A DNA stretch of 64,000 bases from Desulfogranum japonicum DSM 18378. Its GTDB lineage: Bacteria > Desulfobacterota > Desulfobulbia > Desulfobulbales > Desulfobulbaceae. A model generated the notes under the pieces. That model worked only from the letters and a program-made list of their open reading frames with translations, had not been told where the DNA came from and made no database searches. Below are positions 59,465 through 64,000 of this stretch, one piece after another; within the stretch, counting starts at the first letter, position 1; every line of letters starts with the position of its first letter. Location: positions 6,749-70,748 of the forward strand of contig NZ_KE386997.1 of the NCBI RefSeq assembly GCF_000429945.1, in the 5' to 3' direction. The position numbers were made by a program, and so were the translations under genes.

Positions 59465-61543
59465 TTACTCAACATGCATACGGGATATATCTCCAACCTG
59501 TAAGACCAATTGCCCTAAAGCGGTGAGCATGTTCAACCTGTTTTGCCGCACTGATGCATCCTCTGCCATGACCATCACCTGATCGAAAAAGGTGTCAACA
59601 GGGGTTTTCATGGCCAACATTTCTTCAAGGGCCTGGGAATACTTCTTCTCATTCAACAAGGGCGCGGTAATAGTCTCTACCTGCTCAAAAGCCTGGAACA
59701 AATCCTTTTCCGCCTGTTCCTGAAGCAAAGCGGTATCCACTGTTGTTGCACTGTTATCTTTGATAATATTGCGAATTCGTTTAAAGGAACCGGCAAGCAC
59801 GGCAAACTGTTCCTGACCCTGAATTTGATTCAGTGCTTCTATTCGTGCAAGGCAATCAACCGGATCATCAAATTTTATAGCAGTAGCAGCATCGACGACT
59901 TCCTGAGGAAAACCACTGGCAACCTGCTCGTTGGCAAATCTCAGACTGATAAATGCCAGAATATCTTCAGCAGTTTTGTTTTCAATAGTCAATTGCCCAA
60001 CATAGCCTTGTAAGGCGGCATCCACAAATACAGAGAGCTTGATGGAGATTGACAGTCCCTTGAGAATATTGATCAGACCTATGGCCTGCCGACGTAAACC
60101 AAAAGCATCTTTATTCCCTGTGGGCCGTTCACCTATGGCAAAACATCCAGCTATGGTATCGAGCCGATCAGCAATCCCTACAATTGCACCCAATATGCTT
60201 CCGGGAAGCTCACCTCCTGAGCGAACAGGCATATAATGCTCTTCGATTGCCTGAGCTACAGAGAGTGGTTCGCCATCCCTGGTTGCATATTCTCTCCCCA
60301 TGATTCCCTGCAACGATGGAAATTCTCCAACCATTTCAGTTAACAGATCAGCTTTGGCCAATCGGGCAGCACGTACAGCTTCTACTTTAAGCTCAGGTTG
60401 AATAGCCTCGGCCAGCTGCTCTGCCAACTTTGCTACTCGTTCTGATTTTTCAAGCATGGTGCCTAATTTATGCTGAAAAACAATGCCACTGAGTCGCTCT
60501 ATACGAGTTTCCAGCTTCTCTTTCTGATCTTCTTTATAGAAAAACAATCCATCCTCAAGTCTGGCTCTCAATACCCTTTCATGACCACTGGCTGCAAATT
60601 TTGTATCTGCAATCTCAGTGTTGTTTACAGCTACAAAATATGGAAGCAATTTTCCCGTGGTACTGTCAGTAACAGGAAAATATTTCTGGTGCTCACGCAT
60701 GGAAGTTATGAGAGCTTCATCTGGGAGTTGCAAAAATTTTTCATCAAATGATCCACAAATTCCATATGGTTTTTCAACCAGATTGGTCACTGTATCTATG
60801 AGACCATCATGCAGCACAGGTTGTGCCCCTGGCACATTCTGCTGTTCACGAACGGCATGCTCAACCTCGTTGATAACCATTTTTCGCCGCTGCTGCATAT
60901 CGACAATCACAAAATGGTCTGCCATTGCCTGCCGATACTGCGCAATACCAGAAATAGTGATATTGCCAGATGCGAGAAAACGATGTCCTCTGGATGTGTT
61001 ACCAGCTACAACACCTTCTATTTCCAGATCTATGACACTTCCATCAAAAAGAGCGACTATCCATTGAATGGGACGAGCAAAGGCCAAACATGTTTCAGAC
61101 CAGCGCATGGATTTAGGAAAAACAATTTCCCGTATTAAGGATTCAAGTAAATCAGGGAGTAAATCGATGCTATCCTGCCCCTGTACTTCTTCAATCACCA
61201 TGAGGTATTCACCTTTGGGAGTTTCCACAACTTCCAAACTCTCAGGAGCCTTACCTTTGGACCGGGCAAATCCTATGGCTGCTTTGGTGGGATTGCCGTC
61301 AGCATCAAAACCGGCACTACGGGAAGGGCCGATGTGTTCAAGACGCTGGTCAGGCTGCCGACTCTCAAGATCCTGGATAATCAGCGTTAGCCGCCGCGGT
61401 GTTCCATAAGTCTCTATCCCATGGAAATGTAAGCCAAGGCCGCGTAACTTCCTGTCCATTTCCCTGCCAAGGGTTTGCAATGCAGGTTGTATATACCCAG
61501 CAGGTATTTCCTCGGTTCCGATTTCAAATAGTAGTTCACTCAT
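59465..61543 (-). CDS. glyS: Glycine-tRNA ligase beta subunit
   Basis: A 692-residue protein, the full family length. It begins MSELLFEIGTEEIPAGYI and has the HD-like and anticodon-binding parts typical of bacterial GlyRS beta (FGLRRQAIGLINIL, SGHERVLRARLEDGLFFYKED, IADRLDTIAGCFAIGERPTG). The alpha subunit gene glyQ is normally directly upstream in bacteria with the alpha2-beta2 enzyme, but here the upstream gene is a FolE2-like protein and no glyQ is seen in the window. Confidence 0.95.
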   Translation of the reverse strand: MSELLFEIGTEEIPAGYIQPALQTLGREMDRKLRGLGLHFHGIETYGTPRRLTLIIQDLESRQPDQRLEHIGPSRSAGFDADGNPTKAAIGFARSKGKAPESLEVVETPKGEYLMVIEEVQGQDSIDLLPDLLESLIREIVFPKSMRWSETCLAFARPIQWIVALFDGSVIDLEIEGVVAGNTSRGHRFLASGNITISGIAQYRQAMADHFVIVDMQQRRKMVINEVEHAVREQQNVPGAQPVLHDGLIDTVTNLVEKPYGICGSFDEKFLQLPDEALITSMREHQKYFPVTDSTTGKLLPYFVAVNNTEIADTKFAASGHERVLRARLEDGLFFYKEDQKEKLETRIERLSGIVFQHKLGTMLEKSERVAKLAEQLAEAIQPELKVEAVRAARLAKADLLTEMVGEFPSLQGIMGREYATRDGEPLSVAQAIEEHYMPVRSGGELPGSILGAIVGIADRLDTIAGCFAIGERPTGNKDAFGLRRQAIGLINILKGLSISIKLSVFVDAALQGYVGQLTIENKTAEDILAFISLRFANEQVASGFPQEVVDAATAIKFDDPVDCLARIEALNQIQGQEQFAVLAGSFKRIRNIIKDNSATTVDTALLQEQAEKDLFQAFEQVETITAPLLNEKKYSQALEEMLAMKTPVDTFFDQVMVMAEDASVRQNRLNMLTALGQLVLQVGDISRMHVE

Positions 61544-61790: not shown

Positions 61791-62492
61791 TCAAGGCCCT
61801 TCTATGGCGGCGTAGCTGGAAAATCCGCGTTCCACATGCTCAACTTTAACCCGAAACCAGGAAAATGCAGCCAGTGAACTCAATATTTGCCCGATTCTCT
61901 TACACATTGCTTCCGGTGAATCGCCACCAGATCCACCAGATGCACTACCTCTCTCTATATGTTGTATAAGATCCTCCAACCAGACGAAATGGTTGAGGCG
62001 TACGGCAACCAGGACTTTACCCCACAGACCGGAGACAGCCTGCACACCATTTTTCCTAGCGTTGGTATTTAACTGTACAGGAACTTCAACCTCGACTACC
62101 AGGTCAAGCTGTTCTTTAAGAGAACCACACATACTGCAGTCATACCTTCTGGAAATGCATTCCGAATTACCTAGGGAGGCAGCAAAAAAGTAGGGAAAGG
62201 AAATTTCCAGATGGGCGGCTTCAGCTTCGAGACGTTTGCGCATTTCTTCCAATATGTTATGTAGCGCAAGTAGATCAAACTTATGATGAAAACAGTTCAA
62301 AATCTCTATAAAACGACTCATATGAGTCCCTTTAAAGTGTCTGGGAAGATGTACGTACATATTGACACTGGCAACAGTCTGTTGCGACTGTTTTGCCTTA
62401 TCTTGTAACGTGATAGGATAAGAGATATTTTTAACCCCAACTTTTCGGATGTCTATGCATCTTGAATCGGGAGAGGACTGAACGTCTTGCAT
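61791..62492 (-). CDS. FolE2-family protein lacking the catalytic residues
   Basis: A 233-residue protein that aligns with GTP cyclohydrolase IB (FolE2) at the N terminus (MQDVQSSPDSRCIDIRKVGV, ISYPITL, HFKGTHMSRFIEIL) and in the middle (VVEVEVPV, NHFVWLEDLIQHIE). At the site where FolE2 has CPCS, ending in AHNQR, this protein has N142-T-N144-A and S154-G-L-W. The tail ESIHNH is replaced by ERGFSS. The cysteine and both histidine positions are lost. A frameshift was checked and is not the cause. It also has an unusual cluster C112, C119, C122. It is unlikely to be a GTP cyclohydrolase; function unknown. The start agrees with FolE2 N termini but lacks a ribosome site. Confidence 0.75.
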   Translation of the reverse strand: MQDVQSSPDSRCIDIRKVGVKNISYPITLQDKAKQSQQTVASVNMYVHLPRHFKGTHMSRFIEILNCFHHKFDLLALHNILEEMRKRLEAEAAHLEISFPYFFAASLGNSECISRRYDCSMCGSLKEQLDLVVEVEVPVQLNTNARKNGVQAVSGLWGKVLVAVRLNHFVWLEDLIQHIERGSASGGSGGDSPEAMCKRIGQILSSLAAFSWFRVKVEHVERGFSSYAAIEGP

Positions 62493-62890: not shown

Positions 62891-63247
62891 TTAATCAAGG
62901 TATTTATGCACAGCTTCCTTAAGTTCGTCAATATTTGCAGATTTCACAATATACTCATCAGAAGCCCAACTCTTAAAATCATTTTTAAATTCCGGGTATG
63001 CTGAACAAAGAATAACTGGAAGTTGAGCATTGATTTCCTTCATACGGCTTAACACATCAATGCCATTCATCCCTGGCATATTTATATCCAACACAACCAG
63101 GTCAGGCTGATGCTCACGAAATTTCTCTAAAGCTTCTTCTCCGTTAAAGGCTGATATAACCGTATACCCATCTTCTTCAAACTCACCCCGGTAGAGCAAC
63201 TGTATCCCCTGCTCGTCATCGACCAACAAAATAGTTTTATTTGACAT
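62891..63247 (-). CDS. Single-domain response regulator
   Basis: A 118-residue CheY-like receiver without output domain. It has the acidic pair (LLVDDEQ), the phospho-acceptor Asp in LVVLDINMPGMNG, the switch Ser in ILCSAYPE and the conserved Lys in YIVKSANI. The Lys is followed by Ser instead of the usual Pro. GGAGGAG precedes the ATG. The cognate kinase is not adjacent; the hybrid kinase at 38.7-40.7 kb is too distant to assign. Confidence 0.9.
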   Translation of the reverse strand: MSNKTILLVDDEQGIQLLYRGEFEEDGYTVISAFNGEEALEKFREHQPDLVVLDINMPGMNGIDVLSRMKEINAQLPVILCSAYPEFKNDFKSWASDEYIVKSANIDELKEAVHKYLD

Positions 63248-63335
63248 ATTCTCCTCCAAAGCCCTTCACGTGGGGCGTCCCCTGTGGGATGTAGCCTTAC
63301 CGAATGTGGCTCCTACTTTTAGTAGTCCGATCAGC

Positions 63336-64000
63336 CTAGGCCTGCAATTGAATTTCTTTAAGATATTTACACGTATCTTCAGGGGGTATCGGATTAATAT
63401 AAAACCCGGTTCCCCACTCAAATCCTGCAATGGAAGTCAATTTAGGTACTATTTCAAAATGCCAGTGGTAATGCTCCAGCGGTCCGGACCGCAACGGTTG
63501 AGTGTGCAATACAAAGTTATAAGGAACATTAGGTATACAGGCATCCAATCTCCGCAGTGACTCACTGAATATTGCTGTCAGTGCCTGCAATGAGTCCTCG
63601 TCCTGATTAGCGTAATTGGAATTATGATGACGTGGCATGATCCACATTTCAAACGGTGATCTCGGAGCAAATGGGGCCACGGTCACAAAATGACTGTTTT
63701 CACATACCAGACGAATATCCTGCTGGATTTCCTGGCGAATGATGTCACAAAAAACACACCGGTCCTTGTACTTATAGTAGGAAAGACTGCCATCGAGTTC
63801 AGATGAGACCATCCGCGGTAGAATAGGAAGTGCAACAAGTTGTGAGTGGCTATGTTCCAGAGAAGCACCGGCTGCTTTACCAAAATTTTTAAAGACCATC
63901 ACGTAACTGAAACGATCATCTTTTGCCAAATCCCGTATACGATCACGAAAAGCCCGAAAAGTCAGAATCATTTTATCTGCGGGCAAATCAGAAAATTTCT
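63336..64000 (-). CDS. galT: Galactose-1-phosphate uridylyltransferase-like HIT protein, 5' end outside window
   Basis: The frame stays open to the window edge, so the N-terminal part is missing; about 221 codons are present. The segment has the GalT-type motifs GASLEHSHSQLVALP, a Cys pair CVFCDI, and HYHWHFEIVPK with histidines of the HIT fold. Nucleotidyl transfer between sugar phosphates is the likely chemistry. Galactose-1-phosphate is not certain, since relatives act on ADP-glucose or other sugars. The gene is followed by a lone receiver gene on the same strand. Confidence 0.8.
   Translation of the reverse strand, partial: KFSDLPADKMILTFRAFRDRIRDLAKDDRFSYVMVFKNFGKAAGASLEHSHSQLVALPILPRMVSSELDGSLSYYKYKDRCVFCDIIRQEIQQDIRLVCENSHFVTVAPFAPRSPFEMWIMPRHHNSNYANQDEDSLQALTAIFSESLRRLDACIPNVPYNFVLHTQPLRSGPLEHYHWHFEIVPKLTSIAGFEWGTGFYINPIPPEDTCKYLKEIQLQA

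Follow-up and report, generated by a model that had tools for sequence, protein, structure and literature searches.

GTP cyclohydrolase IB (FolE2) appears to have been divided between two genes across a bacterial order, with the residues that are invariant in the complete enzyme distributed over two paralogues. This arrangement of a known enzyme, as read from the sequences, appears unreported: no heteromeric or split FolE2 was found in the literature searched, which included few subscription papers. Structure papers on FolE2 include Sankaran 2009 and Paranagama 2017. One of the two genes lies in the window, i.e. the whole stretch of 64,000 nucleotides that was analysed; its product, encoded at 61791-62492, is here called FolE2B, whilst FolE2A denotes the second FolE2 copy in the same genomes. 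We propose that the GTP cyclohydrolase IB of these genomes is probably an obligate A/B heteromer, with FolE2B as its non-catalytic subunit. If so, an essential housekeeping enzyme would have become a two-gene heteromer by reciprocal loss of half-sites in one whole bacterial order, providing a clean natural test of the transition from homomer to obligate heteromer.

FolE2B, its motifs and its locus

The intact reading frame described in the earlier note was confirmed as an ORF of 233 amino acids on the minus strand. Its assignment as a FolE2 paralogue without the active-site motifs likewise holds, with a match to Pfam PF02649 (GCHY-1/FolE2; E 1.1e-38, 133.7 bits, above the cut-off of 25) and with CPCS, HNQR and ESIHNH all absent. 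The Pfam match spans profile positions 1-143 of 260 only, and FolE2B scores below the cut-offs of both the NCBIfam FolE2 equivalog NF010200 (113.8 bits vs 215) and the MptA profile TIGR00294 (42 bits vs 220). An AF2 model (pLDDT 79.6) adopts the tunnelling fold, with TM-scores of 0.81 to 2r5r and 0.80 to 5k95; within the chain, confidence falls lowest at residues 146-154, the loop that once held CPCS. The gene, segments of its protein and the conserved neighbouring genes are as follows.

61791..62492, minus strand: folE2B, non-catalytic FolE2 paralogue, 233 aa
62460..62492, minus strand: N-terminal M.D.Q...D.R segment, residues 1-11, present in FolE2B and absent from all FolE2A copies
62310..62330, minus strand: GTHMSRF, residues 55-61, invariant in FolE2B and in complete FolE2
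62019..62069, minus strand: former CPCS...HNQR catalytic stretch, residues 142-158, a variable loop followed by a conserved S-x-G-x-W-G
61917..61946, minus strand: residues 183-192, where the LLKRPDEK.VTE loop has been deleted, from the family alignment
61815..61832, minus strand: residues 221-226, reading ERGFSS instead of ESIHNHS, from the family alignment
62891..63259, minus strand: single-domain response regulator, neighbour in 21/21 genomes
63336..63998, minus strand: galT, neighbour in 21/21 genomes, extending past the window end
59465..61543, minus strand: glyS (glycyl-tRNA synthetase beta), neighbour in 20/21 genomes

All 30 aligned FolE2B sequences lack CPC, HNQR, LLKRPDEK..E and ESIHNH, and the N-terminal D.Q...D.R and GTHMSRF are invariant among them. 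That FolE2B is catalytically dead on its own is well supported. The details of the altered site differ from those first described. The active-site stretch had been taken to align without gaps, but the family alignment opens a gap of one residue within the CPCS loop, removes the LLKRPDEK.VTE loop (some 14-18 residues) altogether and leaves ESIHNHSAY two residues short. An 'NTNA' active site could not be sustained, as the loop is hypervariable and differs from genome to genome; what is conserved is S-x-G-x-W-G, at the position where complete FolE2 has AHNQRG. The proposed new trio of cysteines (112, 119 and 122) reduces to C119, conserved as Y-x-C, a motif also common in FolE2A, since C112 and C122 are not conserved among FolE2B sequences and position 122 is usually His; a new metal site built on the trio was therefore rejected. 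No conserved Cys/His cluster in place of the metal site was present in the FolE2B alignment.

FolE2B is a real, old and conserved family. Full-length orthologues (45-76% identity) were found in most of the 37 related genomes searched, a 76%-identical copy being in a Desulfobulbus MAG (L033), and most of these genomes also contain a second, weaker FolE2 match. Among close pairs dN/dS is 0.09-0.17 overall, with 0.02-0.05 for the N-terminal part vs 0.12-0.34 for the C-terminal part, indicating purifying selection and bearing out the initial view that this is not simple decay; the homologues too are without the catalytic residues, and the gene is not specific to one strain. The order galT - response regulator - folE2B - glyS is kept in 20 of 21 mapped genomes, and in the remaining one, G446, the stretch with folE2B contains just galT and the response regulator of these. 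Further conserved neighbours are dksA, moaC, dnaJ, rpoZ and purA; an operon with folate genes was ruled out, there being no folate gene among the conserved neighbours.

Reciprocal losses in FolE2A and FolE2B

The genome from which the window derives contains exactly two PF02649 genes, the second being FolE2A at G000:C1:373169-373894. In the same genomes FolE2A retains TLCPCSKEIS, GAHNQR, LLKRPDEK.VTE and ESIHKHSAY. Its N-terminus is shorter by some 12 residues and lacks the D.Q...D.R segment, and R.SC... is found where KGTHMSRF stood, such that the His is replaced by Cys and the Arg is lost. An AlphaFold model of FolE2A (pLDDT 83.8, pTM 0.84) is on the whole confident, like that of FolE2B. The Cys at the position of the GTHMSRF His is almost invariant (30/31 copies, e.g. 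L066 / L001 1462-2211, minus strand), and it is possible that it has a thiol or metal role in a dead site. In 19 of 20 genomes folE2A adjoins HSP15(S4)-purH-purN-pyrR (L130 and the other A loci), and it lies next to folE2B in none of the genomes mapped. Its neighbours include genes of folate-dependent purine synthesis.

The complementarity of the two proteins was quantified by aligning 25 complete FolE2s together with 31 FolE2A and 30 FolE2B sequences, taking as invariant those positions conserved in at least 95% of the complete enzymes. The 90 such positions comprise 31 kept by A only, 16 kept by B only, 26 kept by both and 17 intermediate, with none lost from both. Those kept by B only lie at positions 4-64, plus R170 and N241, and those kept by A only at 109-250, including C147, C149, H159, N160, Q161, R162, D200, E201, E243 and H246 (by the alignment, the numbering of C147 and C149 agrees with that of the gonococcal chain in 3d2o). 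At a retention threshold of 50%, A has lost 24 positions and B 37, with an overlap of 0 (hypergeometric P 1.8e-7), a P value that is only a guide and overstates the independent evidence, because the sites are not independent and the losses are clustered, N-terminal vs C-terminal. Overall divergence follows the same division: across 24 matched genomes, identity is 0.51 for A, 0.81 for B and 0.74 for complete FolE2 in the N-terminal segment, and 0.70, 0.44 and 0.64, respectively, in the C-terminal part. Both halves, with every element, are present in all 20 of the single-copy FolE2s that were drawn from genomes beyond the order. In the tree A and B each form a clade with 100% support on a long stem; their placement relative to the single-copy enzymes has only 67-84% support. 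An outside genome, G416, carries two complete, diverged FolE2 copies with all motifs in both (L067, L080).

Distribution and need for the activity

Our survey covered 160 genomes, each at least 90% complete, of the Desulfobulbales-type order, counting as FolE2B any match with E < 1e-60. FolE2B was found in 155 and full-length FolE2A in 149 of them. Most, not all, of the apparent absences coincide with contig ends or missing loci. For FolE2B, glyS is absent too in G017 and G004, and the glyS contig of G452 starts partway through the gene, which means that these three assemblies do not include the B locus; in G540 (92% complete) A is present, B was not found and the neighbourhood of glyS is rearranged and devoid of B. 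For FolE2A, the contig ends shortly past HSP15 in G429 and G033 and less than 1 kb beyond it in G536, where A should start; A is cut by a contig end in G522; the purH locus is entirely missing from G029 and G529; and G520 has HSP15 and about 0.9 kb beyond it, with no A in that stretch. The three genomes of genus g9, of the same family (G014, G444 and G445), have neither A nor B and one complete FolE2. In G014 this copy groups with FolE2s from outside the order on a long branch, which suggests a joint replacement of A and B. The galT - response regulator - folE2B block upstream of glyS is gone in this genus (L151 in G014, L152 in G444).

A separate type-IA FolE performing the reaction was ruled out: none was found in the 37 relatives, including the 100% complete genome of origin, and the same search was positive in 11 of 14 controls. 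The genome of origin and nearly all relatives encode HPPK (FolK) and QueD/PTPS, so that the product of a type-I cyclohydrolase is used. In the genome of origin there is no candidate for a type-I GTP cyclohydrolase besides the A/B pair, and, with the downstream enzymes present and no type-IA FolE, the gene content indicates that A plus B must presumably supply the activity. The genome of origin and some congeners have two PTPS/QueD genes (G000:C32:4946-5329 and G000:C2:71181-71534 in the former); most relatives have one.

A putative heteromer, its alternatives and related systems

The suggestion that the genome be searched for a second intact folE or folE2 was answered in part: a second FolE2 exists, but it too lacks conserved residues, complementary to those missing from FolE2B. 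As the residues conserved in FolE2B are ancestral FolE2 residues lost from its partner, they suggest that FolE2B belongs to a split FolE2 as the subunit without catalytic function. Known FolE2 forms homotetramers whose active sites lie where three adjacent subunits meet (PMC6718149). Following gene duplication and reciprocal loss, FolE2A would contribute the catalytic half-site (CPC, AHNQR, LLKRPDEK..TE and ESIHKH) and FolE2B would contribute the N-terminal half-site (D.Q...D.R and KGTHMSRF) across the subunit interface. Sites pairing the catalytic half of A with the N-terminal half of B would be live in such an oligomer, and the reciprocal sites, degenerated in both chains, would be dead. A single arrangement of this kind would account for both sets of losses and for their failure to overlap. 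We infer that A and B associate physically, that the half-sites are drawn from different chains and that the pair acts as a GTP cyclohydrolase; against the second of these stands the related bimodular QueF, in which a single chain contains the whole composite site (PMC5372742). The separate loci of the two genes and G540, with A and no B, also speak against the proposal. If true, it would predict which FolE2 residues act across the subunit interface. Each such genome would then hold two genes that databases call FolE2, each insufficient alone, and annotation, metabolic models or heterologous expression of either would mislead. We think it unlikely that the dead sites, in which the S-x-G-x-W-G of B would face the Cys58 half-site of A, are kept for allosteric or metal/thiol sensing; were they so, splitting would have added a regulatory pocket to the step with which the synthesis of folate and queuosine begins.

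Among the alternatives, a rather improbable one is that FolE2A is active alone with a remodelled N-terminal half-site and FolE2B serves in the oligomer as a non-catalytic regulator or stabiliser akin to PDX1.2. FolE2A does keep every residue of the catalytic half, the conservation of its Cys58 in 30 of the 31 copies could mean that it still works in modified form, and pseudoenzyme partners are known elsewhere, e.g. plant PDX1.2 (PMC6829848). However, a regulator need not keep exactly those ancestral residues that A has lost, the N-terminal part is the most constrained of FolE2B, and B is as universal in the order as A, being retained even in the reduced 1.7-Mb genome G219.

The heteromer is also preferred over neofunctionalisation, by which FolE2B would work without FolE2A as a tunnelling-fold enzyme or binding protein, and for which the conserved S-x-G-x-W-G at the old catalytic site and the conserved locus of its own could be cited. 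This we regard as very improbable, since the best conserved residues of FolE2B are ancestral ones, its catalytic C-terminal part is the fast-evolving one and no Cys/His cluster takes over the metal site; of the two possibilities raised in the earlier note, a pseudoenzyme stands, though probably not a lone one, and a new activity is unsupported. Taken by itself, the absence of catalytic motifs would also fit a decaying pseudogene, frameshift or assembly artefact, an explanation already refuted by frames that are intact throughout the order (45-76% identity), the conserved synteny and dN/dS well below 1.

FolE2B resembles FolE2 (PF02649; 3d2o, 5k95, 2r5r and 8g6c) in fold (TM 0.80-0.82), N-terminal motifs and overall length, and A and B jointly contain every invariant FolE2 residue. 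Unlike the homotetramer, in which all residues reside in one type of chain, these are here split over two genes, one of them without the catalytic residues. Bimodular QueF, also of the tunnelling fold, offers a parallel in its duplication, its one module that lost catalytic residues and its composite site (PMC5372742), although its halves are fused in one chain with an intra-chain interface and here the genes are separate. In PDX1.2-type partners and paralogous homomer-to-heteromer transitions an inactive paralogue is likewise conserved beside an active one (PMC6829848, PMC11066126); the difference here is that the 'active' paralogue, FolE2A, lacks residues as well, complementary to those lost from FolE2B. 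In one closed genome, G309, the sole FolE2 is interrupted, falling into two frames with the stretch LNAESAHMEI repeated (L074/L085, G309:C1:2417010-2417904), which is either a sequencing error or a real split.

The MptA-type GTP cyclohydrolase (TIGR00294) belongs to the same superfamily as FolE2B, but MptA-like copies retain GIHMSR, CPCT, HSQR and ESIH and FolE2B does not. As a general substitute a third copy of this kind was ruled out, the genome of origin having only the two PF02649 genes. Some other families of the order carry such a complete MptA-like copy, and it stands beside A/B as a third copy with all four motifs at L076 (G033:C273) and L082 (G219:C16).
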